Shown here: piece by piece, positions 9,601 through 52,426 of the stretch
Layout: every line of letters starts with the position of its first letter
Numbering within the stretch: the first letter of the stretch is position 1
The notes under the pieces: model-generated
Databases searched by the model: none
Told to the model about the DNA's origin: nothing
The model's input: only the letters and a program-made list of their open reading frames with translations
Assembly (NCBI GenBank): GCA_964034945.1
Contig: OZ035962.1
Span: 29,415,943-29,479,942 of the forward strand
Length of the DNA: 64,000 bases
From: Chrysopilus asiliformis
Lineage: Eukaryota; Arthropoda; Insecta; Diptera; Rhagionidae
Reading direction: 5' to 3'
Made by a program: the position numbers and the translations under genes

Positions 9601-10805
9601 ATGTTCGAAAATTATCAAGCTACTCCGGAAAATCGAATAAGGAAATGGCATTCGATCGGTAATGGAAACCAGGGAGATTTATTCACCACCGAACAGGAGG
9701 ACGAGGAATGGCAGTTTAATGGGATGCAATCAGGACACTTTATTGTTAGCAGAAATTCACAAAAACTACAATGGTTTGAAATTAATGATAGAAATTATTT
9801 TAGAACGATGAAATCTGGTGCATTGATTACCGCGACGATATTCTCTCGTGTCTTTTTGAAAGTGAAAAGAACCTCCGAAGGATTGATTTGCGATCGCCTC
9901 AAATAAGCCAAAGACCTGCCTTAATTAGTTTGATTAAGACAACAGCAGAGTCGGAGGTGCTACGAAGGACCACGGTTCATTTAGGTTGAATTTGGAAAAA
10001 TCTCATTTCGTTTCCGCATCTAAATTACTGAACTTTCTTTTAGCAATTTACCTTCTTGACTATTTTATGGATCACCACAATATTGCCCTACAACGCCTGA
10101 ATATGGTCGGTTTAACGTGTCTACTGATAGCTGCTAAACTGGAAGAGAAAGATAGCTGCATTCCGAAAATCGCCGAATTGCACCAGTACTCGGGACATAA
10201 ATACCACCTAAGGGACTACAAAATCATTGAGAAGAAAATCGTGGACCTCTTCGATTGGAATCTCATGGTCCCCACCGCAGCCACATTCATTGAGATATTC
10301 GTTCACAAATTGATCTCCACAGAAGATTTCCAAATAGCATTGCGACTGCAAAGGAAGACTCGCAAGGAGAAGTACAAAAGCTACCAGCAGTTGTTCGTTG
10401 AAGCCTCGTGCCTGGCGTTCGAATTCTCTGATTTAATTCTGCTTGGTGTGTTCTCAATAATTTCCCAAAATATTCCCTAACTAACAAAAAAATTATATTC
10501 TAGATTTGAAAAGCCACACATTGAGCCCCTCGCAAAAGGCAGCAAAATGTCTAGCAGCGGCTCGGCGATCTTTGAATTTGCCCCCTTGGTCAGAGGATCT
10601 CGAAGAATTGACGAAATGCAGTCTAGAGTCGTTGGGAAATATTTCCGATTTAATCAATTCGAAAATTGATAGCGCGGGCGTTAATTCACCGGATTCTGGG
10701 TACATTTCGCCAAAGTCTGACTGTGACAGTCCAGCCGGACCTGAAAGTGTAAGCGAGGATTCGTCTGGAACCCCTGCTGTTAAACGTACACGTTTAGAGT
10801 TGTAA
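9601..10805 (+). CDS. CycJ: Cyclin J
   Basis: A divergent cyclin of early development and the germ line in flies. Exons are 9601-9744, 9804-9984, 10044-10445 and 10504-10805 (1029 nt, 342 aa); the introns are 58-59 nt. Exon 2 gives DYRDDILSCLFESEKNLRR then RSPQIS, which aligns by eye with the CCNJ N-terminus. Exon 3 carries the cyclin box with AIYLLDYFMDHHNIALQRLN, LLIAAKLEEKD and WNLMVPTAATFIE. Exon 4 continues the second cyclin fold (AAKCLAAARRSLNLPPWSEDL) and ends in a Ser-rich, basic tail. The first 48 codons (poly-acidic, weakly conserved) and the donor at 9745 (GTTAGC) are the least certain part. Confidence 0.9.
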
Positions 10806-13361: not shown

Positions 13362-16300
13362 ATGAGTACCGTTTTACATTTTCCAATAAATTTTGGTAAT
13401 TAAATTATGATTTTTCTTCAATTAAAGACTCATCAAAATTCGTTGGAACTCCAACAACATCTTCAAGAAAGTTTAACGTACGACAAAAAACTGTGGAGAA
13501 CAAGAACATTCCTCGACGCATTCAACGTTCACTTGAGAGTCCAGAAAAAATAATAATTGAACGAAAAGATGGTAAATTAATTGTAATTATTTAGCAACCG
13601 CTAAAATTAGTACCTACTCTTGATTGAATATCAATTGGCAAAATACATTTGTAAATTTTGGTCTTTATTACAAAATTTTTGGATTTACTATTTAATTGGA
13701 CATGTTTTGAAGATTAAAGACCAGAATTATTTTAAAAAATGTACAAAAAAAATTGGATGAGAGCAGTTGAAACGGAATTCTCCAATCAACATTTTTACGC
13801 AACGATGACTGCAATCAACACTTTTACACAACGATGACTTCAATCAACAATCAACGCGACCTGTTGCAGAAATGCGGGCCAGAGAAATTAGCAGATTTAC
13901 ACGAATTGGAGTCCTAGGTAAATTACTTTGAATTTGTTTTATGAATCGAACTAATTTTGGACAATGTTTTAATTTTGTAATGTTTTAGTTTTTACTTTCT
14001 TCTACGGAGTATAATAAAGTATTGTATTCATGAAAAATTTCGACCTCTTAATTTTGCCTAAAAAACATTTCCCGATCACTCCTGAGTCGATTGGAGTCAT
14101 ATTAAAAAAATGTCGTTCTGTCTGTCAGTCTGTGTACAAGATTTCTCAAAAACTAATAGAACTAGCGCCATGAAATTTTATAGGCATGTTGGGTCCTGAA
14201 ATGGGACGATCCTATCAACTTTTGGTGGAAATCCGTTAACCGGAAGTATCCAAAATGGCGGTTTTTCAAAAATCGCAATTTCGTTTTTCTCGATTTACTC
14301 TCAAACTACGCGTTTTTTAGTGGCCTTAAGTATGACAAAACTTGGAGAAAATAAAATTTCCCACACTTTTGTCTTTAGCTATAACTCGATATCTCAACCT
14401 GTTATCGAGATAAACCGTTATTTCCAAAAAAAACTGTTTTTTGCGATTATCTCGATTATTGAGATATTTTCATTAATATGTAAAAAATCATATTTTTGCG
14501 AATAATTTGCAAACTAACGGTTTTTCGACAAATCAGTTAAAAGAATAATTAAAGATGTTAACATTTTCTACATTTTTGCCATTTACCGTAAATTGATATA
14601 TTTTACCGTTATCAAGTTATCTCAAATTTTGTACGTTTTTTGATATTTTTGAATAAATCAAGGGCTCTAGCGTAAATTGCGCAGGGTCGTAGATTTTGTA
14701 GAAGAAAGTTTTGTGTTGACCACAACTGATATTTTTTTATCAAGACTATGATAACTAAAAGAAAACTCGTTAATTTTTAATTTAACAGTAGATTTAACAA
14801 TTTTCTTCCAAAATCTGCATAAAATAACTAGAATTCTTCCCAATACTAACGTTTTATCGCACTAACAAAAATGTCAGAATTTTGACAGCTCGGGAGAGGT
14901 TTATAGTGTTGCACGAAGGCTCCTAAAACTGTAACAGTGACTCAAAGTCACAGGGATGGGCAGATTAAAGTTGAGGGCGATGAGGATTCAAACATGAGCT
15001 ACAAGGAATTTGGATATTTTGTTTTCTCCTATCACATACAAACGAAAACGTTTTTTATGAGTTGTTCGGAAAAAATGCGAAGACAAAAATATTAAACAGT
15101 GGCGGCATTAAAATTTAAATCACGCTCTTTTGTAGAGTCTCGTAACCTTTGGATCGAAGTATTATAAAACGTAAAAGGCTGCCCATAAAATACATCTCAC
15201 ATTTCGGTGATAGAGATTTGCAGTAGTGGTATTTAATTTCATACAAAAAATCGTGTAAAAAAAGTACAGTGGGGGTAGGAGGGAGGGGTGGGGGGGGGTT
15301 ATATAAAGAAAAAATTAGCGTGATACATTTAGAAAGTGATCCGCCAGGGTTTGGGTACAAATCTCGTAAAAATCGCAAAAAAGGTTGTCAAATTTTTGTC
15401 GGGAAAACTAAAGAGTGAATATTTTAGTAAACTTTCTCTTAATTTCAATGTTTTTTTAATCTCAGAGGATTTTAGAGTACTTCAAAAATTCATCAATCAA
15501 CAAAACTGCAATCAACAGCGACTGCAACTTGAAAAACATCTACAATCAACACAATTGAGAAAAAAGTAAATAAATTCAGAATTATTTTTTATGACTTAAA
15601 ATCATGCATGACGGAATCAATTAAACGAAAGTCGAGTAAATTATTTCAGTTTATTAGAATTGACGAAAATTAAAATGTATCTAAATTGATTTTTTTTTTC
15701 ATATTGTTAAATTTGCTTAAATTATGTTAAATTGGATTTAAAAACTTCTATCAAGAAATTTTAAATTTTCAAGTCAATTTTTCTTTCAAAATATTTGCTA
15801 AATATTATTGTTTTAACTAATCGTAAGTAAATTTTAACGTACATTCAAAGAGTGATAAATTTTTAACAAAAGTAATAAAAAGTCTCTACAATCAACAATC
15901 TTCAAGCAACATTCATCGGCGATAATCGGCAGCTTCTGTTTCTTTTAAAAAATATTAATTTTATAAATTGACTAATTATATTTTCGACCTTTATTAGGCG
16001 AAGGGAAAAAACCACTTTTCTCTAGAAGTGATATCGTAGTTAATCAACCGCTAAGTGGCGATCATCATTCGAAATCAAATCGTAGAGTCCAATCCACATC
16101 GGTAAGTATGGATGAGTTTAGAACTAATAATTTGAATTACTAAAATGTTTTCATAGAGTTCCGACGACTCTTCGCCGGAGCCACGTCATCGTTCGCACAG
16201 AGAAAGCATTCATCAACGAGTGAGAAGTGCTGAAAGGGTAATTTATTGTTTTGTTTAATGTAAGAGAAAAGGTAATTAAAAATTATAGACTCCCACACCG

Positions 16301-19300
16301 GAAGATCATCGTCGACGTGACACCCAGAATGCACGAAGGGACAGATCGCATTCGCCGAAACAAAAACGGGCGCTAGACAAAGTTCCGTATTACTTAGACG
16401 AAAATAGGGAACGGGATCGAATTCGAAAGAAGCACTATGTAAGTATTTTTTTTAAAGAAATGCAAATAAATAAAATAAAACAACACCTATCTGGCAATTA
16501 TTAAAAACCCGTATGATGATTTAAGTGAACGGCGAACAGTTGTATCAAAATTCCACTTTGAAGTCAAACTTTTCAACAGGATTTTTTTAAATTTATTCCA
16601 ATCGGATTTTGATGTATGGGAGTTTTATGTAGAATCATAAACAACTTTTGTTCTTGCCCTTTTTCTGATAAGATGCACCGTTTTTGAGATATTCGCAAAA
16701 AACGTTTTCGTTCGTATGGGGGGAACCCCCCCTAATGGTCCATTTTTACCCACTAACGAACTTAGCCTTGCATTTTACGAAAAACGAATCTGCGTAAAAT
16801 TATCCGTGCGCCCGCAATCCGCGCCACAGACGGACGGACGGACAGATATGCAAAATTCAATTTTTTTTTATCATTCTAAACACACTTGGTGTAATACATT
16901 TTTGTGTGTGATGACGGGATCTTGGCGTTACAAAAGTGAAGGCAAAGTTAATATACCCGTTAGAGTTATTATTACAACTCCTTAGAGTTAGTAAAGACAG
17001 CCAAATAAATTTAGATGTTTTACCCTTTAAAAACGATTCTTATTTGAACCATTTTTTATTTGTTTGGTTATCGACCATCTTTTGTAGAAGAAAAACATCT
17101 GAATTTTGGTTTACTGCCTTTACAAATCACGCAATGTGGCAGCGTATCTAATTAAATCGGTCGAAGAAGGGTTCGTACTTTAGACCGAAACTTTTGTATC
17201 AGTATCAGAAAAATTGTGTATAAAAAATAAACCTTTGTGCTGATAACACTGGTCAACAAAATTGTAACTTTGTTGTGCCACATGGACTTTTTTGATATTT
17301 TTTGCTTTAATAGGTGGTTGACAGTAAAAACAAACATTTAAAAAAAATCGGTTAGCCAAGAATTTTATTTTCTTAAGTAATTTAAAATATTTCAAAAAAC
17401 AATGACCTCCTAAACCAAAAATGTAAAAAAAATTATTATGAAGTTACGATCTAAGATTTTCTAGCAAATTTAGCTCCTGGTTGGTCCCTTTTGATTGTCC
17501 AGCAGTAATCTGCCAACATATTTGGGTTCCATTTGCCCTGGTAACATTTTTTTCATCTCAGAAATGTCTTGATGGAACCTTTCACCGTGTTCATCACTCA
17601 CAGCCCCAAAATTCTCAGGGAAAAATCGAGGTGTGATTCTAAAAAATAATTCTTGAGTGACATGTTGCAACCCAATGCTTGATAAGCCAACAATATGTCG
17701 CTAACCAACTCTCTGTAGCTCTCACTCTTATGGTCAGCAAAAAAATTTGCAACAACATTTTTAAAAGATTTCCATGCTGGTTTTTCTTAATTGCTCAATT
17801 TTTCTGCGAATACCGGATCTTTTATCAACTCCCTGATTTGAGGTCCTACGAAAATACCCTCTTTTATCTTTGTATCACTTTGGTATTGGTATTTTGCGAA
17901 AACAAAATACCGGTGATAACTCTCCAAGACTAGTTTTGTGAAATTTCGTCTTTGTTTTTTAAAAGTCTGTTTACCGCAAACATGACAAAAAGTGTTAGGA
18001 TCGTTACTACACTTTCTCGACATGTTAACGCAGTTAATAGATCACAATATTTTGAAGAAATGACAGACAAATAGTTTTATGACTATTTCTTCTCGAACGG
18101 TTCTTTGCTTTTATTGCCGTAGTACTAGTTATAAGTATTACCGTATCACAAGAAAACTGAGGCTAATTGAAACAAAAGAATTGCAGTTTAATAATCAGGG
18201 TGCTTAGTTAAAATAGTATTAGCCATCAAAGTTCGTGTGGCATGACCAGTGTTGACCAGTGTAATCTTTCTGTTATTTAAGAAAATCAAATTATGCAAGT
18301 AAACTTTCCGCAAAAATGTAACAGTATTTTTTTGCACTGCAAATATTCCCCTGAGATGATGATTGATCCAACAATTGATCCAAGATATAATACAACACTG
18401 TCACCATTTCTATGTAATTTAAAATATTCCGAATTATCCATAAAATCGATGCAAAAATGAATTAAAAACAATAAAACTGATGATCACCTTACATATTTCC
18501 GAAAATATCACAGTAAAATTTACAGTTACTATTCAGATAAGACACTATTCAGTTACTATTCTGACTGGATCCACAAAAAATTAGTTTTTGATGACACAAA
18601 GGCACTTGCCAATGATTAGAAATAAGATGAGCAAATTCGTATAGAAACACTCTAAAATTCATAGAAGAATGTTTTTGTAGAAGTGTTACAGTTGATCCTT
18701 AATGGCCCCGAGCCCTTCCCCTATGTTTAATGCAAGTGACATGTGATTTTTTTCTGTTCACGCGGCGTTACTTCAAATCTCCTTCCCCACCACCAAGAAA
18801 TTGCATTTTGTGACATTTTGATTAAATTTACTTCCAACGACAGAAGGTTTAAGAACCTTTTTTTAAGGAATCGACTTTCAGATGTCTCTAATTTCCCATG
18901 CGATATTGTGTACATGTTTCAGGCTATACCTTAATCCAAAGTTTCCTTCTTCCTTACCCACTTCTCTGCTATCTTGAGCCGTTGAAACAATTTTAATCCA
19001 ATTTTGATTATTTGACAAATGGCAAATCTTATACCACCCCTTCCCTTGCCGATCCCGCTAATCTTCATTTTTTATCTTCTCAATTAATAACGCAATTATT
19101 TATAAAATGTTTTACTTTCATATAATTTCTTAAAGCCGCGTTTCCATTTGCGTTTTTTTCTTGAATTTCTCCGTGAATTTTATTCACAATTTTATTCGCA
19201 GGATAAATTTACTTAGCAAAAATTATTGCAGAATAAATTCACTTAAGCAAAAATTGTCAAAATTTTAATTTATTCCGGCGGTTTTGTATGAAAAGATCCC

Positions 19301-20250
19301 ACTTCCGTGAACTTTCAGGAATAAGTTTCAGAATTTTGTGTCTAAAGTAAACAGTTGCAAAACGCAAACTCAGTGTCGCAGAATAAAATTCGCGGAATAA
19401 AGTGCCAGACAGCGTCTATCAATTTCTATATAGACTAACCCGGCCCTTACACGCGTCTGTAGAGCTGACACAGTCGCTGACACAGACTCGTGTAAATGCA
19501 CTCGCTAAATGTATTTTAATTCGTTGTCAGTAATTTCACATTTGAAGTCTGTGCTACTGACAGACTTTACAGTCGCGTGTAAAGGCCGGGTTAGAAATCC
19601 CTCAAAAATTTGTTTGAATATTTAATTAGTTTTTTTTTTTATTAATATTTAAAAAAGACATTACTATGCTGCGAAAAAAATCCCCTTTTTTGTATTAAAT
19701 TAATAAAAATATGAATTTTTATCATCCCATCAGTCAACTGCAAGCAGCACTAGCAGGCGACAATACGAAGAAAGGCGTCGCTCGAGATCACGAAGTCGTA
19801 GTAGAAGTTACGAGCGAAGACGGCGGACCCGAAGTAGTCATAGAAGTCGACGCAGCCGAAGTCGCAGTTACGATCGCCGCCGCAGAAGCAGTCGTGAAGG
19901 ACGTCGATCGCGGTCAAAGACTCCCTCGCACTCTTCACACTCCCACAACCAATACGATACTCGCCAATTGATCCCAGTTATCCCATTTGCTCCTATGGAG
20001 TATCCATACGTATCGTTTTTCTAAAATTTTATCCAAGCAAATTTTTAAATTGATTTCGTTTCAGCATCCTGGTTGGTTTCCATCGCCATACGCAAGAGTT
20101 CCTTACATGATTCGACCACCAATGGCGATGCCTCCTCATCACATGCCCCCTCCGCCAAATTCGTATCATCTACGACCGCCAGCATTCAGGCCGCGATTTC
20201 CAGGCAGGCCACCTCCTAGACAGAATTTTAGGCCACGTATTCAATATTGA
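13362..20250 (+). CDS. tra: Transformer, female sex-determination splicing factor
   Basis: An SR-type regulator that with TRA-2 directs female splicing of doublesex and fruitless, and in many flies of its own pre-mRNA. Exons: 13362-13395, 13428-13571, 13870-13917, 15998-16101, 16157-16237, 16289-16438, 19734-20009 and 20065-20250 (1023 nt, 340 aa, all phases consistent). Order in the protein: a basic N-terminus (NIPRRIQRSLESPEKIIIER); MRAREISRFTRIGVLG, which I take to be the CAM-type autoregulation domain; RS-like exons 4-6; the Diptera-type motif KVPYYLDENRERDRIRKKH; a dense Arg/Ser domain in exon 7; and a Pro-rich tail in exon 8 (PPMAMPPHHMPPPPNSYHL). Exon 3 is a 48-nt symmetric exon. TRA/TRA-2 binding repeats fill the introns around it. 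Intron 6 (3.3 kb) is swollen by transposons. The assignment rests on architecture, motif and the nearby l(3)73Ah. Confidence 0.88.
13779..13856 (+). promoter_or_regulatory. TRA/TRA-2 binding-site cluster A
   Basis: Four overlapping or adjacent matches to the 13-nt dsx-type repeat TC(T/A)(T/A)CAATCAACA start at 13779, 13808, 13837 and 13844. They score 12, 11, 12 and 12 of 13 by eye. The cluster stops 13 nt before the acceptor of tra exon 3. If an upstream acceptor at 13766 is used, the cluster becomes exonic and an in-frame TGA arises at 13835-13837. Confidence 0.8.
13989..14737 (+). repeat. Dispersed repeat A, copy 2, in tra intron 3
   Basis: Same ends as the copy at 3122-4077. It differs by having a single CTGTCTGTCAGT unit, a ~110-bp internal deletion (after ttgcgattatctcga) and a ~38-bp deletion (after gaataaatcaag). 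It sits between tra exon 3 and the candidate male exon. Confidence 0.7.
15177..15337. mobile_element. MITE of the GTCCATAAAAT family in tra intron 3
   Basis: Left end ggctgcccataaaatacatc, right end decayed (agcgtgatacatttagaaag). The centre is G-rich (ggtgggggggggtt) as in related copies. Non-coding. Confidence 0.5.
15466..15565 (+). other. tra: Candidate male-specific exon of tra
   Basis: A stretch bounded by a good acceptor (tttttttaatctcag) and a GTAAAT donor. It stays open from the exon 3 phase (EDFRVLQKFINQQNCNQQRL...). Its length, 100 nt, is not a multiple of three, so inclusion shifts the frame and creates a TAG at 16023-16025 early in exon 4. It contains three TRA/TRA-2 sites, the usual content of male-specific tra exons in other flies. 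The role in males is inferred; the splice signals and frame effect are visible. Confidence 0.6.
15490..15551 (+). promoter_or_regulatory. TRA/TRA-2 binding-site cluster B
   Basis: Three 13-nt repeats: 15490-15502 (tcatcaatcaaca, perfect), 15505-15517 (actgcaatcaaca, 11 of 13) and 15539-15551 (tctacaatcaaca, perfect). All lie within the candidate 100-nt cassette exon. Confidence 0.85.
15885..15911 (+). promoter_or_regulatory. TRA/TRA-2 binding-site cluster C
   Basis: Two abutting repeats: 15885-15897 (tctacaatcaaca, perfect) and 15899-15911 (tcttcaagcaaca, one mismatch). They lie about 90 nt before the exon 4 acceptor. A possible alternative acceptor (ataatcggcag) ends at 15932. Confidence 0.8.
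16488..16965 (+). mobile_element. mini-me/DINE-like element, copy 1, in tra intron 6
   Basis: Starts within ctggcaattattaaaaaccc and carries the family core (aaaaacgttttcgttcgtat), a short acggacggacggaca microsatellite and the end gttaatatacccg. More diverged than the other copies. Inserted in the sense orientation in tra intron 6. The frames over it are repeat frames shared by all copies. Confidence 0.7.
17246..18261 (-). mobile_element. Internally deleted DNA transposon with inverted ends, in tra intron 6
   Basis: Inverted ends cactggtcaaca / tgttgaccagtg, with subterminal ttgtgccacatgga matched by the inverse at the right. On the minus strand are two pieces of one broken protein: an N-terminal Cys-rich start (18023-17787, CSNDPNTFCHVCGKQTFKKQ, later VGPQIRELIKDPVFAEKLS) and a C-terminal piece (17670-17470, FFPENFGAVSDEHGERFHQD). 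I remember these phrases together in a longer protein that is widespread in arthropod genomes, so this is a deleted, frameshifted copy. The family name is not known to me. Confidence 0.7.
19436..19593. mobile_element. Small MITE in tra intron 6
   Basis: 158 bp with inverted ends taacccggcccttacacgcg and cgcgtgtaaaggccgggtta. Several 'ctgacaga' motifs inside. The target duplication is not clear. It ends about 140 bp before tra exon 7. Confidence 0.75.
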
Positions 20251-22261: not shown

Positions 22262-23534
22262 CGTTATTTAATTTGTTTCAACTTCTATAGTTCTATGTAA
22301 ATAAGGGCCAGTTCTTGAAAAAATACTAGTTTATTTGTTTTTAAGTAGTTTTTAATATCATTTATTATTATTAAAATGTAATTTATAGTGTTTTTTATAT
22401 TTTCGTTTGGTACTAAATTTTGCAACGCTAAATAAAATATTTTTTTTAATATTTACGCCTAAATCTACATTCCCCTATCTCCGAAATTCTGCAAATATTT
22501 TGATCCGCACTTAAGTCCTCCTTCATTTAGTAGTTTGAAAGAGGTCCGGTTAGTTTGTGGCACAGGCGACATTTTATTCGCCTCGGTAGCTCATTCAAAA
22601 TGAAAATATGTTCTTCAAGATTTGGCACTTCAGCAGCAGACTGCAGTATGTCCTTAGAATATTTTAATCTCGATTATCAATTTTTTGTACAGCAGCCGTG
22701 TATAATCGTGTTCCAAATACATTTTATCCTAATTGTTTTTCCGATATGACGCGCTCGGAATGGAGAAAATTCAGCCAGAGTCAGCCAGAGTCAGCCAGAG
22801 CTGCGGCGAAGACTCTTTAATGCCGAAGAACAGCTCAGGATGGTCGGAAGAACAGGGATAAAAGCATAAAAAACCAAATCAAATAAATATTTATCTCGCT
22901 TTTATTTCTGATACACAGCACTTTTTAGTACATGTTTTTAAATCAAGGCTTTTTTTAGTTTTTTCATAGTTTTTTTTAAAATAATCATTGAATAATATCT
23001 TCGAAACTATTCGGTATTCGGCCGAATTCTAAAACTAGGACGAATACCGAATTGTAATCAAATATTCGTTGCAACCCTTCGTTGCAAAATACCAAAATTC
23101 AAACCAAAGAATAGATTACTAAAGATAAGAAACAACAGAATTTTTCATATAACTTTTAAAATGTATGGAAAATACTTTAGAAGTCTGAATCTCAATCAAG
23201 TAACGCATGCAATATTAATATTTTTATTGATTTATTGACCGTTAAGCGTTAAAATATAAAGGAATATAATCGTTTTGCGAGGCATACCAGCTTCTATTTC
23301 CGCTGTCGAATTTTTATGGGACCCAAAAATTTGTTCCAAGGATTCTTATCTTTATTTACCTAATCTTTGTTCAAACTATACAAAAAACATTGGATTGCCT
23401 TGTTGAATCTCACTTTTGATGGTTCGCTTTTTAGTTTCGACTTCTAAATTTTTCAAGTTTAGACGTTGCCTAAAATTTCACAAATCAATAAAAAAAACAT
23501 TTAATATCGGATGTAGTTTTTTTTAAAGTCTTCT
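22262..23534. other. Non-coding interval downstream of AGO2
   Basis: No gene seen. Contains three direct copies of gtcagccaga at about 22775-22800. Should include the 3' UTR of the minus-strand AGO2 gene. Confidence 0.35.
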
Positions 23535-26500
23535 TTACCCTTCAATATAGGCTTTGCAGCGGGCTGCAACCAAATGGGCGTAGTATGTTGGAGCCGGATA
23601 TGAAACTGCGCTATTGCAACGAGCGAACATATGGCACAGATTATAAGTGGCAGCTTGCAAGTCATCAATCTTAAAGTTAGCGTCATTTCTTACAACCCAG
23701 TATTTGGTGGGCCTGGCGACACCCTGAACCGCTTTGTGACTCTGTAGGAAATACTGGTATTCCTTCGGATGTCTGATAACACTATCGACGATTGTCCCAG
23801 GTGGACAGTTATGGAGTTTGTCTTCTTTGGAAACGTTAGCGCCTGGATGGAATCTCGTATGATGGCGTTTTTGAACAACGATGCATGTTAACGATGGTTT
23901 TTTGCCAGTGACCTAAAAAATATGAAATTCTAGTAACGCACATATTAAAAAAAAAATCAAAATATCTCACTTTAAAAGCACGCTCCATAGCCGCCAATTC
24001 AATATCCTTTAAATCTTTATATTGTGTATCGGAAACACCATCACGATAATAGATTATTTTGTCCGGATACTGTCCTAGTTTACTCTTGTAGAATTGTAAA
24101 TGTTGACGACAAATATTCTCCATATTTATAATCATTTCCTTTTTCGAATCCTGAATATCATAACCCATGTTAAACTGGAAAAAGTTCGGATCGTGCGAAG
24201 CTGTAACACCGACCACACTAGGGACATAGGAATTGGGCGCCGGATGAGTAACATCGGCTCCTATTAGCATAACATTAGATCCCAGGACGTTGGTTCGATC
24301 ACAGGATGCAATTGTCTGATTAATACCATTTAATTTTGCATTAACTTTTAGCAAAATGTTTATAACGGTGTTGGGATCTGATCGTCTTTCCAGCGTCTCC
24401 GCTTTTATACATTGAGTTAAAACGCCCTTCTTCAATTCCGCTGATTGCTTAATCTTTGCATAGTTATAGCCCGACAATACAACAAATACAAGTTTTACTT
24501 TTTCTTTGCTGAACTGCTCCATTTTGGTATCAATCGAATGTATAGGGTTTCTGTGATCATATCCGGTTGAATCGATTTTTACTTTTTCAATAATAATACC
24601 GACTGTTGGGGCGTGTTTTAAAAGCTATAAAATAAATATATTGAATACTTAAATTATTGTTAAACAATTTTAAATATAATACCAGATCCTTAAATCCGTG
24701 AGCTAAACTCTCCGATTGTTTATCCATTACCCAAATTGTAGTTTGTGATAATTCGGCTGGCTTCAGAAATTTAACATTTCTTAAGTCCCACTTTCCGTTA
24801 TACGGATGCAATACCTTTTTATTTTGATATTCTAAATTGGGTGATTTTATCATTCTTGCATGCACCTCGATAAAATTTCTACCCAGTGAAATTCCAAACG
24901 TTTCTATAATTGGATTCTGATTGCGATGGAAATATTCGAAAAGTTCCATGATTTTTTTCTTTCGGATATCAGTTGTAGTGGCAGCTGCCTTTATCAGAGC
25001 ACGAACTTGATTCACAGTAGCATCTTTTCTTGTCTGTCCAGCTGGCAAATAACATAACTCCAATGGTATATAAATTTTCTTGTCTGGATTGCCAATGTGT
25101 ATACACGGTAATTTGGGATACTTTAAAGTATAATTTTTATCATTGGCAAAGTATTCAGCCACGGATATATTCCGATCCGATAACATCTCAAATTCTGGGG
25201 TATTCACCAAACCATTGAACTTGCTAAAACGTTTTGTGCCAGTCGGATCGTTGTAAATTATATTGAATCCTTTCAAAATATTTTCGAGATTTTTTACTGA
25301 CCAAAAAGGCAACACTTGTTCCACATTGATTTTTGAATTCATTTTTAATAATTCAATCAAAGGAATTTCTGTAGAAAATGCCTTATGAGACACATCGATG
25401 TTGAACAAAGGTCGTTCGCCAAAAACAACCGATTGAAACAGACCCAGCCATAGATCGAATCCTTCACCCAACATTTGTTCCGCGCGTGGTCGATAAAAGC
25501 TACGCCCAGCTTTTTTCCCTTTGGCGAAACATACATCTTGGAGTACCACGTCTAAACATTGGCAAGCTTCCTTTGGCATATCGAATATACGATAGTTTGT
25601 ATAACTTGAAAAAAAATACAAGCAAAAATTTAAAAAAAAAAAACACAAACAACAATTTAAAAAAAAATACAAACAAAAATTTAAAAAAAAATACAATAAG
25701 AAAATTATAGTTTTATGATGGTCAACCCATCAATTCAAACATCAGTTGAAATAATTTTTTTATCTTCCTCTAGGCCCAAAATCAACTACAATTTCGGCTT
25801 AATCGGTGTTGGTGTTCTCAAGTTCAAGCTTTTTAAAGCGATTAAAATTAGCTAAATTCTTGGCCAAAATTTTCAAAATTTTCTTAAAAACGGCTTGAAA
25901 TATCGAAAAAAACAGTGCAACAACTATCTATAGCTATTCATTAGTTCAGTGGTTCCCAACCTTTTGCTTTCGTGACTTTTTTAAATCTTTTTTTTCAAAA
26001 AATATTTTTTGTACAATTTTTCTAAAAAATCGGCGGCTGTCATCGAGCAATTATTTGTAAAACCCCGAAATGTGCCGCAGTTAAAATTATTAAATAATAA
26101 CAGAGCGCATACTGGTTCCAAATAACCCAAAAGCTGGTATTAATTCACTTCACAGGCAGTATTTTTCGCATTGTACAGTGCATAACTAAATTCAGTTAAT
26201 AACCAAACATTTAAAATAAAAGGTTTCCGGTTTTTTAAATTGCATATCTTTTCATACGTTTCAGTCGCGTTATCATAAGCTGGGTTGACTCCCCTGCCCT
26301 ATTACTCTCTCTTCTTTTGGTTACTTTTCCCATTTTAAGGGGCTATTTGAAAAGAAAACAAAAAAACCCTTGTTATTTTAAACAAACGTTTTTTTTTCAA
26401 TTAGTGCAAATTCATGCAAAACCTGTAAACGGGTAGTAAATCTACAATACAGAAGCTTCAACAAAAATAAAATACCAGCTCAGTGACAGATATTACAATA

Positions 26501-28515
26501 AAAAAAAAAAGAAGAAAAAACTCATAGTTTTTCTTGCTAGATTCAAAATTCTAAATAAATTTTAAAATAGCACTTACTCTGCCAGAATTGTTAAATCAAT
26601 TTCCATATTATTGGTTTCTGTTAGGGTTATTTTGAATCTTTTTAAATGACGATCTCCAAACTCAGTGGGATCCACAACATCCACCTAATATTTTTTTTAG
26701 TTGTTAAAATGTATTCTAATAAATTTCAAAATTTCATACCTCAACAGTAGATTTCAGAAGATCGTACTGTAGCCTCATTGGACTGTAAACAATTGCTTTA
26801 CCATCGAAAACCAGGCATTCCTTATTAACACTTTCACGATATTTGTTAAAAGCCAAGCGCAACATTCTTTTAGGTGTGTTTGGAGTAAATTGAATGTTGT
26901 AACGATATGCAGTTGAGATTAGGTTCTCCAGGATTAGTTCCACGTAATTTACTTCGATTGGACATAATTCACCAGCAGAGCCTTCTGCTGAGGCGGCAAT
27001 ATCCGTACCAGAGGTACTGGCGGCTAACTTTGTAACTTGACTAGGACTTAGTCGGGAGCTACTACAAGAAGCCTCACCACATTGTTGTTTTCCATTGTTC
27101 TGTCCACCCTGTTTTCCGGCCCCACGTTCTTGTTGTTTCTTTTGCCCACCTTTTTGGCCACCCTGTTTTCCGACCCCACTTTCTTGTTGTTGCTTTTGTC
27201 CACATTTTTGGTCACCTTGATTTCCGGCCCCACTTTCTTGTTGTTGCTTTTGTCCACATTTTTGGTCACCCTGTTTTCCGGCCCCACTTCCTTGTTGAAC
27301 ATTTCCTCGGTTTATTTCGTCTTTCTGACTTTCTAAACTGTTCTGCGAGTTCGTCCCTGTCTCAGATTTCAAATTTAAATTAATTTTCGCTTTATGTTCA
27401 AAGAAGAGCGGTTGTATAAAGATTCGAGGAATATGTGAAGATAAAAGATTTTTTATATTCTTAAAAAGTTACAACGGAACACCTTCAAATAATTCGACAA
27501 ATAGCAAGGAAGAGGGGGAAATGGAAAAAAACCAAAGGTAAAATATGTTTCCCAATCATTTAATAACAAAAAAGGCAATGATAAGACCGACAGATAATCT
27601 CATAAATTGCAAAAATTTCTGCTTAACAATTATTTTTATCACGCATAGATAAGATATTTATTCAATTGATTTAGGACAATGTATGGCTAGATGCCCCGAT
27701 GGGATAAATGCTCCGAAGCGTGAATCTGCTAAACTAAACAATCTAGAACGAATACAAATTACTGAATATAGAACCCACACAGCTCTTAGTATGTATACAA
27801 AATTAAAAACTTACAAAAGTTCATGAGCATTGTTCTTGAAAAAATCAAATTTTAGCAACAAATGTCTGTCAGAAAATTTTTACGCGACAATTTTAATAGT
27901 AATATCATTTTTTTTGGTTATTTATTTACGTTAAATAAATAGTAACTATGTGAAGTGAGATTTTAAAAAAATCCAAAAGGTATCTATCCGTACCTACTAG
28001 GGCATCTATCCGTACCAAATTCGATTTTTTTTATCCCCCGCTGTTCTTTTCCTATTTGCTCCAAGGTTCTGAAATTTTATAGGGATATAGTTTAATAAGG
28101 AAGCTATCCTATAGGTTTAAAATTATATATGTATTAAAAAAAAAAGAATTTCACAACGTTTGTCCGTACCTTACCCTATTATGTATATGCACTGTCGAAA
28201 AACATTACTGAGTCATCCATATAAACTTTCGCCATAATACGAAATGTTGTGAAATTGAAGCTAACATTTTAATTGGAAAAGCTCTTGCGAGATATAGCAA
28301 CAAATTAAACAAAACTCACGTTTATTTTTCTTTGGTTCTTCACATCCTGTTTTTATTTGCGGCTGTTGTTGTTGCCCTGAGGTAGACTCTTTAAATTGGG
28401 AAAATTCGTCTATTCCCCTAGGGTGGTTTCTTGTTCTTTTCTCTAAATCACAACAAATAAAATTAAAATAACGATTTCACTACATGAAATTTCACATACT
28501 TTTTCCTTTTCCCAT
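23535..28515 (-). CDS. AGO2: Argonaute-2, RNAi slicer
   Basis: Loads siRNAs and cleaves target RNA in antiviral and transposon-directed RNAi. Exons: 28515-28500, 28442-28320, 27389-26740, 26684-26578, 25604-24683, 24624-23971 and 23912-23535 (2850 nt, 949 aa). The protein starts MGKGKKKRTRN, close to known AGO2 starts. A Gln-rich segment follows, then tandem units of the type GNQGDQKCGQKQQQESG, comparable to the glutamine-rich repeats of Drosophila AGO2. Then come the N domain (YNIQFTPNTPKRMLRLAFN), PAZ (VAEYFANDKNYTLKYPKLPC and YIPLELCYLPAGQ), MID, and PIWI with slicer residues in IGADVTHP, YYRDGVSD and a final YYAHLVAARC. The PIWI core looks intact, so slicing is expected. The intron before PAZ carries a hAT end fragment. 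Confidence 0.95.
25957..25990 (+). mobile_element. hAT-like terminal fragment in an AGO2 intron
   Basis: The phrase cagtggttcccaacctttt is the usual end of many hAT elements. No inverse partner was found nearby, so this is at best a solo end. Confidence 0.35.
27085..27302 (-). repeat. AGO2: Tandem protein-coding repeats in AGO2 N-terminus
   Basis: At least four in-frame units of about 18 codons with the pattern (G)K/NQGDQKCGQKQQQESGAG, the downstream units more diverged (GGQKGGQKKQQERG). The two best units are almost identical at the DNA level, which points to recent expansion or homogenisation. It corresponds in position to the variable repeat region of other AGO2 proteins. Confidence 0.85.
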
Positions 28516-37205: not shown

Positions 37206-38097
37206 ATGTCTGTTGGCAGAGTTCTAATTTACGGAGGAAAAGGGGCACTCGGTGCTGCATGTGTTTCGCATTTCAAATCGAATAACTGGGTGAGTATCTT
37301 GTAAATTGAGTTTTCTGATCCGATTTATAAAGATTTCTTTTATTTCGCCGTGGAGTGGGTCGGAAGTATCGATTTAGCGTCCAACGAGAGTGCGGATGTC
37401 AGCATCATTGTGCCAAAAGAAGGGACATGGGTGGAACAGGAGGCCGAAGTCGCAAGGAAGGTTGGAGAGGCACTTAACGGTGATAAATTGGATGCCATTA
37501 TCTGTGTGGCGGGAGGCTGGGCAGGGGGAAATGCCAGTAAAGGTAAGAAATCTATTGCCTCACTTTGATTTTTCGATTTATTGTCAATTGAATTCGCTTA
37601 GATTTGGTTAAGAACGCCGATATGATGTGGAAGCAAAGTGTGTGGACTTCCGTGATATCCGCTTCGGTTGGGGCTCAATATTTAAAGGGCGGCGGTCTAT
37701 TGGCCTTGACTGGCGCTAAAGCGGCATTGGACGGAACCCCCACAATGATTGGTTACGGTATGGCGAAAGCTGCAGTTCATCATCTAACAAAATCGTTAGC
37801 CGGAAAAGACTCTGGACTTCCCGACAAATCTCTGGTCGTGTCCATTCTCCCTATCACTCTTGACACAGAAATGAATCGCAAATGGATGCCCAAAGCTGAT
37901 TTTAGCACTTGGACACCACTCAGTTTCATTTCAGAGTAAGATCTAAATTTAATCGTCTTAAAAGTAATCTTTTCAATTTGATTTTCGTTTCCAGAACCTT
38001 CCTAAAATGGGCCAAGGGCGAGGGAAGGCCAGCAAATGGTACTCTACTGCAGCTAGTAACGAAAGACTCAAAGACCGATTTAGTTCCAGCTGAATAA
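37206..38097 (+). CDS. Dhpr: Dihydropteridine reductase
   Basis: Short-chain dehydrogenase that regenerates tetrahydrobiopterin from quinonoid dihydrobiopterin with NADH, supporting aromatic amino acid hydroxylases and pteridine metabolism. Exons: 37206-37289, 37356-37542, 37602-37935 and 37995-38097 (708 nt, 235 aa). The Rossmann motif is [15 protein letters not shown] at residue 6. [12 protein letters not shown], the catalytic [11 protein letters not shown] (Tyr-x3-Lys), [16 protein letters not shown] and [14 protein letters not shown] follow the human QDPR order closely. The start is the ATG in accATGtctg directly before the nucleotide-binding strand; an in-frame upstream extension is probably leader. 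Confidence 0.96.
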
Positions 38098-43617: not shown

Positions 43618-45377
43618 CTTTTAACTATTCTTTTGTTACTCAAACTAGACTAAATACAGACTGAGCAAGAAAACGATCGGAAAATTGTTATCGAGAAAAC
43701 CCAGAAATAAATCCGTCCAGCAAAGAAATGAATCGAAATTGGGGTTGTCAGATCACAATTTGGTCGAGATAGTTTTTGTAAAAATCGAATATCCCTTAAA
43801 CAAAATCCCTCGAAAATTTCTTCCGCTTTTTCCCACTGATGAAAATTTATGCAATGTAAAATCAAAATTTGTGAAAATACGGAAAAAGTAGACAAAAAAA
43901 ATCATGTATATTCGCTAATCATCCCAGTGGCTTTAAAACATGCTGTGGATCTTCGGGGTTTTCATTTAAATAAAATATTTGGTAAAGAATTCGTCAATAT
44001 TTATTTCTTGAATGACCAATCGTTGTTTGTAATTCATATGCTTCGTTTACAACAATATCTATGTCTTCCAAATGCTTTTTAATTTAAATAAACTCTTTAT
44101 TTCCATTTTGTTTAAAAAACCAATAGTGAAGCGTGTAGTTCTCAGAAAGCGTTATTATAGATTTTAGCGTGAAAAGTTATTAGATTTTAGATGAAGCGTC
44201 AGTGACAGTTTAGAGTTTGACTATCGGAAAACCTTTGACTGTTCGAAGAGTTTTAAATTCTTTTATTTCGAAAATTTTGTTCCAGAAATCAACTTTGTTT
44301 TCAGTTGTTTCTAAAAAGTTATTCTGTTAAAAAAAAAATTTTCCCCATGAAAACTGTACTTAAATGAATCGATTAAAACATTTTTCGCTTAAATATGTGA
44401 TAATGACTCAAAAATTTAAAAATTTGAAAATTTCAATCAAATTTTCTTACGAAACTCGCCTTCCAATATCTGGCAATACTATTTGTTTCATGATAAATCG
44501 TATTGCAACGGGCATGACGGAATTTTAAAATTACTTTTGGTGTCGTGAAAATTCTGATACAAGCTTGAAATAGTTAATAATAAAATTGATTTTAATCAAT
44601 AATAGTCAATAAAGTATATAATTAGACTATAATCATCTGTTAGAGGCGTAAAGGTGAGCAGCAAAAGTCAAATTAAACTGGAGAAGGAGACATTCGAAGA
44701 TTTTTATTCAGTGGACCCTATTTGCAAAATTTCAAAGGCAAGTTTCAAATCATTTTTATTACTTTTTATCTCACGCAAATTGTTCTGATCGGTTTTTGTT
44801 CGAACTCAATTTACTGGGGCTCCGTGGGGTTCATCCGAAAATTTTTTATTTCCGAACTATCCAAAGATGGCTCCTAATACCAAATTACGGTACAAGCTGT
44901 CCACAAAATATGTCGTGGCGAAGAGTTTAAAATTAGTGTGTTTTATGGATAATTTTATGGATAACCCCGCTACACGGAAATGCTTTTGTCTGCGATACTT
45001 CTTGTCTTCAATTTTTACTTGATATGGACTTATTTTCATTATAATATCGCCGCAAAACAATCAAGATAAAAGAAAACTCTTATGCAAAGCATTTCCCAAA
45101 AAAAAACTAGTTTTTGAGGAAAAAAAACATGGTTTTGGAATAAATCGCGGAAAATTGGAAGCAGATTTTGAAAAAGTTGCTATTTTGTTCTCTTTCGGTT
45201 CACGGAATTTCGTCAAATCTTTGGTAAGATGATGATCCTTGATCAAATTCAGATTCATGAAAGATTTTTCCGTGTGATTGACATATTTGACTTTACGGTA
45301 GAATTTGTGAAAGGCTTTTCCATAATACTTAATTTTTTTTTCAAAAGGGTATTTTTTTAATTGTTCTTCTAGGAATT
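43618..45377. other. Interval between divergent Scsalpha and THAP genes
   Basis: No clear gene. A short coding-like stretch around 44663-44740 (SQIKLEKETFEDFYSVDPIC in one frame, GT at its end) is not linked to other exons. Sequence around 44345-44410 repeats that at 35715-35800. Confidence 0.3.
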
Positions 45378-47804
45378 ATGGACCGACGTCGTTGCCAAAT
45401 TTATTCTTGTGGAAGCACCAGAACATCAACCAACTTTCTTTTTCCCATTAGCGATTTTAAAGTTGGAGAAGAATGGCTATCATGTCTAGCACCAACGACA
45501 TCAAAAAATCTCGAGAAGGAAATCATCGTTTGTAGTCAACATTTTCGAGAAGACCAAACTCGCGTTGGACCAAATGGAAGCCGATATTTGAAGCCAGGCG
45601 AGGTGCCAACATTGAATTTAAACAAGGATTCCAGAACGATTTTGAATATCGGTGCGGGAGAAAATGCTCAATCGCCGGTGGTTCCAATGGAGATTGATGA
45701 AGGTTGTGTCGAATATTGGGACATGGATATTGACTACGACAATAAGTGCGTCGTAGCAAGTAGTTTGTTCGAAATATTCCTGCGTTCAGAGGACCCCATC
45801 AATGAAAATGAAAATTCAGACCCCATAAATGAAAACCAAGCCTCCATCAATGAAAATCAAGACCCAATCGATGGAAATCAAGACCCCATCGATGAAAATC
45901 AAGACCCCATCGATGAAAATCAAGACCCAATCGATGGAAATCAAGACAATATAGGCGACCCAAAAGATTTTTTAGAAGACCTGTCCTCAGTGACTTCTGA
46001 GAATTCTGAAGATGGCACTAATGGCGATTCAGATGATGAGATGGGAGAAACTGGTCACTCTCTCGCCGATTTCCATGCTGCCGTTATGGGAACTCTAAAT
46101 AGTCTGCGAGTTGCATCCAGGTTTTTTTCCAATGATAGCGACGCCGAAAATGATTATGAAGAAGAACCAGCCGAAGAAGAAGGACTCGAAGAAGCACTTA
46201 GCCACATCGAACCACATGAAAACAATTTCGGCGGCCCAGTAAATCATTTGTTGCCAGAAGGCCTAACGTATATGACATCAAATTTTCTCGCAAAACTCAG
46301 CGACACTGAAAGCCATAACATCTACATTTTGCATATAAAGACATATTTCGTCACTGGAGGTGTCATATATTATGATGAAGAAATTGATAGAATATTGGGA
46401 ATTAAAAAGGGAGCCGATGGCACCGTTAAAAAAGTACGTAAAGTTACACTCGTTAGTTTGACTAATTTTAAAACGGGAAATGATTACATACTTACATATT
46501 TCAATAATTTACCAGCCTCAGATTATGAAAAAACTCTCATCGACGTTATAACCATATGTCATAATAATAAAATTACAATTAGTTGTATAATAATTGGTCA
46601 TTGCAAGGAATTGAATTCGCTTTTTAAAAAACACATTTCAACGGTTGATGAATCATTCATAAAAATCAATGGAGAGACGATTTTCATATGTAAAAGTATT
46701 TCGGTACTTCTTTATAAAATTGAAAAATTCTGTAAACATAATTCGTTTATGTGGAATGATTTTGTAAAAAATAGTCTTGTGAATCAAACAATATTGAGAT
46801 GTTGCACACCAAATTTTGCAGTTTCAAAGACATTATTTAATATAAACCATAACGGAGGTAGTTTATATAATGGTGAAAATAATGAGAAAGCAAGGTTGAT
46901 ATTATTAAATCGTGGATTATTCCAAGTGAAGAAAAGGGAGATGGAATCGGTTTTACACTTTCTAAAAGATGTTACAAGAATGGCCATTATTTTGTATTCG
47001 TCGGCATTAAATCAAAATGTTATCATGAAACCGTTTGATGAAAACTTTAAACTGTTAATCGAAATACGATCTCTACTCATTCAAGCGATGGCCAGTTCGA
47101 ACACAAAATGTGTCGTTTGGATTGGTAGACTTTTGCAGCACATCAACACTTTTATTGCGATTACCGAAAAGTATGGAGAGTTAAATTGTAATCTGATGAA
47201 TAGCGATAAACTAACAGAACTAATGCAACAAGTGAAAAACAATCGGCCATTTTGTCCAAATTGTCACCGATATCGCAAGCAAGGAGGAAGGATCTCGTCA
47301 GTAGAATTTTTATTTCATATTTCAAAAATGTTTTTCGACAATTTCAATAAAATGGATGTAAGTTTCGATTATAAAAAACGCATCATTTCTTACGAAATTT
47401 CATATACCATTGGACCATTGCCTAAACCTCCGAAATCATCACTAGCTGCAATGGAAATTATCGTCGAATGTGGCGCAATTCAATCAATCGTTTTCAAAAA
47501 ATATCAAATATGCCAAGAATGCCGCAAACGTTGGAGAATACCAAAAAATGCCGAAAATATTGGTCTTTTATGTCCGAATTCGAAACTATTTAATATTGCC
47601 TTCTGGACCAAGTATATTGTCTTAAAAACTTTGAAGCGCTATGGCGACATTGTCTCGATTTCATATAATTTGCTAAAATTTGTTAAGAATATTCTAATAA
47701 ATAACACAGGATGGGGACGTGATTTTATATTAAGTGATTGCCAAAATTTCATTGACCAATTTATTTTAATGGTGATTCATTTTATAATAATAAAATATGT
47801 ATAA
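45378..47804 (+). CDS. THAP-domain protein, transposon-derived or domesticated
   Basis: Single 808-codon exon. The N-terminus is a C2CH THAP zinc finger: Cys6, Cys11, Cys52, His55 (CSQHF), Trp33 and the closing VPTLN near residue 76, so sequence-specific DNA binding is likely. Residues ~135-200 carry about eight units of the type DPI(N/D)ENQ, followed by acidic stretches. The C-terminal half is Lys/Asn/Ile-rich and ends with two Cys pairs (CPNCHRYRK and CQECRKRWR). Single-exon THAP proteins of this size are often P-element-type transposases or their derivatives. The middle of this one (VTLVSLTNFKTGNDYILTYF) is only faintly like that family, and I cannot point to a catalytic triad. No inverted ends were found around it. 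The frame is long and undamaged. Confidence 0.75.
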   Translation: MDRRRCQIYSCGSTRTSTNFLFPISDFKVGEEWLSCLAPTTSKNLEKEIIVCSQHFREDQTRVGPNGSRYLKPGEVPTLNLNKDSRTILNIGAGENAQSPVVPMEIDEGCVEYWDMDIDYDNKCVVASSLFEIFLRSEDPINENENSDPINENQASINENQDPIDGNQDPIDENQDPIDENQDPIDGNQDNIGDPKDFLEDLSSVTSENSEDGTNGDSDDEMGETGHSLADFHAAVMGTLNSLRVASRFFSNDSDAENDYEEEPAEEEGLEEALSHIEPHENNFGGPVNHLLPEGLTYMTSNFLAKLSDTESHNIYILHIKTYFVTGGVIYYDEEIDRILGIKKGADGTVKKVRKVTLVSLTNFKTGNDYILTYFNNLPASDYEKTLIDVITICHNNKITISCIIIGHCKELNSLFKKHISTVDESFIKINGETIFICKSISVLLYKIEKFCKHNSFMWNDFVKNSLVNQTILRCCTPNFAVSKTLFNINHNGGSLYNGENNEKARLILLNRGLFQVKKREMESVLHFLKDVTRMAIILYSSALNQNVIMKPFDENFKLLIEIRSLLIQAMASSNTKCVVWIGRLLQHINTFIAITEKYGELNCNLMNSDKLTELMQQVKNNRPFCPNCHRYRKQGGRISSVEFLFHISKMFFDNFNKMDVSFDYKKRIISYEISYTIGPLPKPPKSSLAAMEIIVECGAIQSIVFKKYQICQECRKRWRIPKNAENIGLLCPNSKLFNIAFWTKYIVLKTLKRYGDIVSISYNLLKFVKNILINNTGWGRDFILSDCQNFIDQFILMVIHFIIIKYV
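45796..45955 (+). repeat. Heptad-like coding repeat in the THAP gene
   Basis: About eight tandem 21- to 24-nt units of the type gaccccatcgatgaaaatca, encoding DPI(D/N)(E/G)NQ. Some neighbours are identical, suggesting recent slippage. Confidence 0.85.
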
Positions 47805-50568: not shown

Positions 50569-51116
50569 GTTATACCCGTATGGTGAAACCAAAGGGTATA
50601 TTAACTTTGCCTTACCGTTTGTAACGCCAAGATCCCGTCATCACACAAAAAAATTAATTACACCAGTGTGTTTAGAATGATAAAAAAAGTTGAATTTAGC
50701 ATGTCCGTCCGTCCGTCCGTCTGTCTGTCCGTCCGTCTGTCCGTCTGTGGCGCGGATTGCGGGCGCACGGATTGAGCTACAGACTTGAAATTTTGCACAG
50801 GTCCGTTTTTCGTAAAATGCGAGGCTAAGTTCGTTAATGGGCAAAAATGGACCATTAGGGGGGGTACCCCCCATACGAACGAAAACGTTTTTTGTAAATA
50901 TCTCAAAAACGGTGCATCTTATCAAAAAAGTGCAAGGACAAAAGTTATTTAGGATATGATTCTACATAAAACTCCCATACATCAAAATCCGATTCGAATA
51001 AATTTTAAAAAATATTATTGGAAAGTTTGACTTCAAAGTCAAAAGTTTGACTTCAATGTCACCATACGGGTTTTCAATAATTGCCAGATTGGCAATTATA
51101 GCTTTTGTTATGTTTT
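50569..51116 (-). mobile_element. mini-me/DINE-like element, copy 5, reverse orientation
   Basis: Reads ttatacccgtatggtgaaac at its left and attatagcttttgttatgtt at its right. The (gtcc/gtct)n run is at about 50703-50747. Confidence 0.88.
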
Positions 51117-51850: not shown

Positions 51851-52250
51851 AAACATAACAAAAGCTATAATTGCCAATCTGGCAATCATTGGAGACCCGT
51901 ATTGTGATATTCGTATCAAAATTCGAACAGTTGTACCAAAATTCCACTTTGAAGTCAAACTTTCCATTAAGATTTTTTAAAATTTATTCCAATCGGATTT
52001 TGATGTATGGGAGTTTTATGTAGAATCATATCCTAAATAACTTTTGTTCTTGGACTTTTTGATGAGATGTACCGTTTTTGCGATATTTACAAAAAACGTT
52101 TTCGTTCGTATGGGGGGTACCCTCCCTAATGGTCCATTTTTGCCCATTAACGGACTTAGCCTCGCATTTTACAAAAAACGGATCTGTGCAAAATTTCAAG
52201 TCTCTAGCTCAATCCGTGCGCCCGCAATCCGCGCCACAGACGGACGGACG

Positions 52251-52282
<32 letters not shown>

Positions 52283-52426
52283 GACGGACGGACATGCTAA
52301 ATTCAACTTTTTTCATCATTCTAAACCCACTGGTGTAATTCATTTTTGTGTGTGATGACGGGATCTTAGCGTTACAAACGGTAAGGCAAAGTTAGTATAC
52401 CCTTTGGTTTCACCATACGGGTATAA
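51851..52426 (+). mobile_element. mini-me/DINE-like element, copy 6
   Basis: Near full length with the same ends. A higher-order microsatellite alternates ggacggacggacagacagac at about 52241-52294. Confidence 0.88.

Follow-up and report, generated by a model that had tools for sequence, protein, structure and literature searches.

In this study, we analysed a 64,000-nucleotide stretch of the genome of the fly Chrysopilus asiliformis (the window), in which positions 13362-20250 of the plus strand are, judged by their sequence, the transformer (tra) gene. Seven coding exons join into a coding sequence of 975 nucleotides, which is open without an inner stop and encodes 324 amino acids. The Pfam model PF06495 (Transformer) scored the product at 33.7 bits, with a cut-off of 26.7. 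In a protein search with the product, five of the 7,985 scored candidates reached E ≤ 0.001; the Transformer domain was present in all five and the Transformer name in four. These matches came from Bactrocera tryoni (the top match, 39% identity across 41% of the query), Rhagoletis zephyria (whose database entry carries a different source name), B. dorsalis, Stomoxys calcitrans, and Drosophila sulfurigaster. When the protein was compared with the assembly of 429,065,045 bases, six exon matches were obtained, all within this gene, indicating that tra is single-copy. The product contains 30 RS/SR dipeptides and its final 63 residues are 33% proline, so both the serine/arginine (SR)-rich region and the proline-rich C-terminus are present.

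Residues IQRSLESPEKIIIERKDG/EGKKPLFSRSDIVVN of the product align with a conserved N-terminal stretch of the TRA proteins of Bactrocera, Rhagoletis, and Stomoxys. The intron at 13572-15997 splits a Gly codon inside this TRACAM-like stretch, which is the conserved position of the regulated intron. According to excerpts of Petrella et al. (PMC6593557; all papers are cited here from excerpts), all autoregulating tra genes have a sex-specific splice site inside TRACAM at a conserved place. The same source describes the sand fly tra as autoregulating without TRACAM, so the domain is typical of autoregulation and not required for it. The domain, the protein matches, the alignment, and the sole genomic locus together bear out the identification as tra made in a preliminary description of this DNA.

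That description had also reported nine to ten close matches to the 13-nucleotide TRA/TRA2 repeat in three clusters, four of them perfect, and the coordinates hold. With at most one mismatch to WCWWCAATCAACA, nine copies were found in the 2,426-nucleotide intron, all in sense and none antisense, and a tenth site has two mismatches. The perfect copies start at 13837, 15490, 15539, and 15885. Outside the intron, no copy with at most one mismatch was found on either strand of the 64-kb window. In 2,000 dinucleotide shuffles of the intron, a check suggested earlier, the mean number of such matches was 0.051 and the maximum was 1, versus the nine observed. When two mismatches were allowed, the whole window gave 27 matches versus a shuffle mean of 24.7, and 41 of 100 shuffles reached 27. 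Since this count is at chance level, the signal is confined to the close matches. The clusters had been placed between coding exons 2 and 4. Their position stands, whereas the layout has changed: a single intron runs from exon 2 to the exon at 15998-16101, and a cassette exon, B, is optional between them.

Equal density of the repeat elsewhere had been named as evidence against a regulatory role. Instead, the exact 13-mer occurred 572 times on both strands of the 429-Mb genome (1.3 per Mb; 125 for a reversed-pattern control), compared with four copies in the 2.4 kb of the tra intron. Pairs of the 9-nucleotide core with gaps of 4-34 were found 61 times (reversed control, 2), and triple clusters with gaps of 3-33 gave 18 overlapping matches at seven loci (reversed control, 0); these genome-wide counts are lower bounds. 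Although no gene was named beforehand, the seven loci were tra (returned twice), dsx, fru, one tandem array, one coding repeat, and two further genes, designated gene 4 and gene 5. The tandem 14-mer at C2:91642127 and the repeat coding QPYNQ at C3:34467286 were set aside. Exact 13-mers accounted for 4/7 of the sense cores in tra, 4/6 in dsx, 3/5 in fru, 8/10 in gene 4, and 5/5 in gene 5.

The dimerisation exon of dsx scored 108.6 bits against DSX_dimer. Its female-type exon reads (G)QYVVNEYSRIHNLNMYDGAELRGTTRQCG and has a weak acceptor (2.9), and the six repeats lie 788 nucleotides past that acceptor. The fru male exon, which appears P1-like by its resemblance to Drosophila FruM, gave no match in a Pfam scan. 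It ends in a strong donor and is followed by the five cores, the last of which ends 88 nucleotides 5' of a second strong donor at 5396996. With part of Drosophila TRA2 as the query, a TRA2-type RNA recognition motif (RRM) was matched in two pieces, at 51% and 70% identity, and the 13 other matches of that search were weaker (26-39%). The partners tra2, dsx, and fru are thus in the same genome, with the same repeats at dsx and fru. Because tra with repeats, dsx and fru with repeats, and tra2 are all present, the sequence components of a putative TRA/TRA2 feedback loop are in place in this genome.

Table 1. Features of the tra locus, of AGO2 in the same window, and of repeat-bearing or partner genes elsewhere in the genome (C3 is the contig of tra; positions without a contig are those of the window)
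Feature	Position	Strand	Remarks
tra coding exon 1	13362..13395	+	With ATG; joined coding sequence open, 324 amino acids
tra coding exon 2	13428..13571	+	Ends in first half of TRACAM-like stretch; female donor TG/GTAAATTA at 13572, form compared with PMC3567074
Regulated (female) intron	13572..15997	+	2,426 nucleotides; all close TRA/TRA2 matches in the window lie here
Probable male extension of exon 2	13572..13917	+	Alternative donor TAG/GTAAATTA at 13918; male use predicted from blowfly and sand fly tra
TRA/TRA2 cluster A	13779..13856	+	Four sites: 13779, 13808, 13837, 13844
Optional cassette exon B	15466..15565	+	100 nucleotides, frame-breaking, TAG at 16023; use predicted
TRA/TRA2 cluster B	15490..15551	+	Three sites: 15490, 15505, 15539
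TRA/TRA2 cluster C	15885..15911	+	15885 perfect; 15899, one mismatch; 15892, two mismatches (tenth site)
tra coding exon 3	15998..16101	+	Second half of TRACAM-like stretch (G-EGKKPLFSRSDIVVN)
tra coding exon 4	16157..16237	+	
tra coding exon 5	16289..16438	+	Acceptor score poor (0.2)
tra coding exon 6	19734..20009	+	SR-rich; donor CCATAC/GTATCG, score poor (-1.4)
tra coding exon 7	20065..20250	+	Proline-rich end; stop TGA 20248-20250
AGO2	23376-27468	-	Gln/Gly-rich repeat region at N-terminal end
dsx	C1:94703192-94704340	-	Dimerisation exon, female-type exon, six TRA/TRA2 repeats after its stop
fru	C2:5396030-5396996	+	P1-like male exon; five TRA/TRA2 cores between two strong donors
TRA2-type RRM	C3:92788226-92788945	+	Two exons
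Gene 4	C3 ~26.897 to 26.8776 Mb	-	Stop at 26877555
Gene 5	C3 ~26.928 to 26.939 Mb	+	

By conceptual translation, non-female splicing of tra would truncate the protein in either of two ways. If exon 2, cassette B, and the exon at 15998 are joined, the frame shifts as proposed earlier and the TAG ends a product of 101 amino acids. If exon 2 is extended to 13917, the product ends after 66 amino acids. The good splice signals reported for the cassette were found at its acceptor (8.5, the highest of the seven tra acceptors scored), but not at its donor, which is weak (3.8). As sequence, the cassette first described holds up, but the second donor, at 13918, had been overlooked, and by analogy this donor would correspond to the main male choice published for blowflies and sand flies.

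Donor 13918 sits 61 nucleotides past the end of cluster A, and it may matter as much as, or more than, cassette B. Because cluster A lies just 5' of this donor, as in the published blowfly and sand fly genes, the extended exon 2 with its stop after 66 amino acids is probably the chief male form of tra. The extension was preferred over a free-standing exon A because the AGs upstream of the cluster have no pyrimidine tract. A male form other than that first proposed, in which donor 13918 serves as the principal switch and cassette B plays a small part or none, is a reading that we slightly favour. It agrees with the arrangement in excerpts on blowflies and Phlebotomus, with the lack of a good acceptor 5' of cluster A, and with the weak cassette donor. 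The cassette nevertheless combines the best tra acceptor with three internal repeats and a frame open through it, and several male exons are in use in tephritids (PMC2080774).

Whichever male choice prevails, this brachyceran tra gene is very probably built as a self-sustaining splice switch. The autoregulatory reading of the preliminary description is supported at the level of sequence by the clusters, the frame-breaking optional exon, and the partners dsx, fru, and tra2. When TRA is absent, the spliceosome would pick the downstream donor 13918 and/or include cassette B, and the male-type mRNAs would stop after 66 or 101 codons. TRA and TRA2 bound at clusters A, B, and C would block these male choices, and exon 2 would be joined directly to exon 3. 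This joining would yield the 324-amino-acid TRA, which would sustain the loop and direct the female splicing of dsx and fru. We infer in this scheme the binding of TRA/TRA2, the sex-specific use of each splice site, the feedback, and any male signal that breaks the loop.

Several points weigh against such a switch. Sex-specific splicing of tra is predicted from sequence alone, and the IQRSLESPEKIIIERKDG/EGKKPLFSRSDIVVN stretch is taken for TRACAM by alignment rather than by a model. The score of the putative male donor (6.4) is only a little higher than that of the female donor (5.9), in contrast to blowflies. The weak donor of cassette B and the poor acceptor for which exon A was rejected also count here. 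Cluster C lies outside any clear exon, and TRA2-ISS motifs, suggested to act in tephritid repression, were not enriched (5 versus 4.5 expected). Two constitutive sites of the gene model, the exon 5 acceptor and the exon 6 donor, are weak. The splice-site scores come from a general frequency table and serve as a guide only.

It is very unlikely that this tra gene, although real, lacks self-regulation, that its splicing depends on a different factor (for example SXL, as in Drosophila), and that the repeats are a relic. The motif TGTTTTTTT at 15449, in the pyrimidine tract of the cassette B acceptor, resembles the SXL site of Drosophila tra. However, it has 22 copies on both strands of the window, which is too common for a special SXL-like tract at cassette B, and that candidate was rejected. 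The persistence of nine close repeats in a relic would also be improbable. In addition, the N-terminal region of tephritid TRA, held to have been lost in drosophilids along with autoregulation (PMC2080774), is present here. That the repeats are chance matches or a local repeat family is hardly credible, since they exceed every shuffle, are unequally spaced, lie on the sense strand only, and form the same clusters at dsx and fru, although some core pairs elsewhere in the genome do resemble repeat-family copies or tandem arrays.

Genes 4 and 5 are on the same contig as tra, separated by about 45 kb. Both have very long open frames, and the clusters are in the sense of these neighbouring frames. 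The cluster of gene 4 (C3:26894206-26895007, minus strand; 10 sense TRA/TRA2 cores) is in the intron that separates an exon ending in LTFTDLYSE from a 5,224-amino-acid frame. Skipping keeps the frame in phase, and a candidate optional exon from 26895228 would add 16 codons and then a stop. The cluster of gene 5 (C3:26939558-26939629, plus strand; five sense cores) lies 308 nucleotides 3' of the stop of an 831-amino-acid frame, which joins the preceding exon in frame; as in dsx, the repeats come after the stop codon. By our reading, a 956-amino-acid frame at 26944259 joins the earlier exon of gene 5 out of frame and may be another gene. In the pieces of both genes that were scanned (for gene 4, its start and a 396-residue piece of the 5,224-amino-acid frame), there was no Pfam match above the cut-off and one weak HARP match (E 0.038). 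Two gene 4 pieces gave no credible match in PDB (one chance-level row, E 0.87), and comparison of the two genes as possible paralogs gave E 0.37 in BLASTP and, separately, no match at 1e-3.

Direct control by TRA/TRA2 of at least two genes in addition to tra, dsx, and fru, namely genes 4 and 5, appears to us as likely as not. If so, the outputs of the female switch would number four, with these two genes joining dsx and fru. The repeats by themselves are no proof of regulation of these genes. Only two direct targets of Drosophila TRA are reported to be known, yet it affects body size without them (PMC4692505), and for this reason genes 4 and 5 merit a test as TRA targets. The two extra clustered genes are the new lead of this study, while tra itself is a new example of a known gene type, with donor 13918 as a refinement.

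AGO2 and cyclin J of the window were examined for the position of this fly. A tree was built from AGO2 (23376-27058, minus strand) and 40 rows chosen from the best 120 of 2,059 matches. The tree was midpoint-rooted, and the window sequence has a long branch and an odd composition. It fell in a 15-row group comprising itself, 11 named Brachycera, and three further rows (support 100/99), and adjoined Hermetia with weak support (80/55). In the approximately unbiased (AU) test, a grouping with two Bradysia, Contarinia, and one further row was rejected (p 0.013), and a position outside the 14 remaining rows of the group was not rejected (p 0.328). AGO2 would thus place the fly with Brachycera, beside or outside Hermetia, the sole lower brachyceran sampled. 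The protein matches found with cyclin J and AGO2 share only 28-45% identity (six listed for cyclin J; the best 120 of 2,059 for AGO2). A nematoceran affinity, first suggested by the named cyclin J matches (mosquitoes and a beetle), was dropped after the AGO2 tree. The cyclin J gene lies upstream of tra at 9800-10805 (plus strand) and has a Cyclin_N domain; its best named match is Wyeomyia smithii, at 35%.

Further open frames were seen in the window. An 823-amino-acid frame with a THAP domain at 45333-47804 (plus strand) may be a domesticated gene or one that is transposase-like. Frames of an Alg9-like mannosyltransferase lie at 53263-54167 (minus strand), with Glyco_transf_22 in 53263-53775, and a frame at 37592-37939 (plus strand) resembles a short-chain dehydrogenase, under the Pfam cut-off. 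A dispersed repeat with frames like FVRMGGT.PNGPFLP... occurs at 16641-16985, 50641-50961, and 52041-52355, and similar frames occur near C3:26941000 and at locus L032.

Drosophila TRA is an SR protein that acts with TRA2 on dsx and fru, as predicted for the TRA described here. Unlike the scheme proposed for this gene, Drosophila tra is driven by SXL, and its N-terminal autoregulatory region is held to be lost (PMC2080774); it has been termed non-autoregulating (PMC6593557). In tephritids (Ceratitis, Bactrocera, and Anastrepha), the male exons of tra bear stops as well as TRA/TRA2 repeats (PMC2080774). Our gene shares with them the TRACAM stretch, a regulated intron early in the coding region, and a stop-bearing optional exon with TRA/TRA2 repeats. 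It differs in its far diverged sequence, in the TRA2-ISS count noted above, and in its seven coding exons, compared with the four common exons of Anastrepha tra (in B. oleae, exon 1 is divided into two; PMC2080774).

In the blowflies Lucilia and Cochliomyia, males and females use different donors, and the male exon carries a TRA/TRA2 site close to its end; the female donor is TG/GTAATTTT, and its G starts a conserved Gly codon (PMC3567074). The gene described here resembles blowfly tra in its downstream putative male donor near a TRA/TRA2 site, its intron cluster, its donor TG/GTAA, and Gly-Glu-Gly at the junction (PMC3567074). In contrast to blowfly tra, four sites lie 5' of this donor, and clusters B and C lie downstream. 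As in the sand fly Phlebotomus, intron 2 is the regulated one, with an alternative donor and TRA/TRA2 sites (six in the sand fly), but TRACAM is present here and absent in sand fly TRA (PMC6593557).

In the excerpted literature surveyed, the described tra genes belong to higher flies, to sand flies, and to insects of other orders. Among the matches listed, judged by title or the start of the abstract, no paper dealt with tra of a non-cyclorrhaphan brachyceran, although such a paper may exist. A repeat-rich tra with TRACAM in this fly would support the view that the feedback switch is old within the suborder Brachycera, and tra, tra2, dsx, and fru together make the loop testable within one species.
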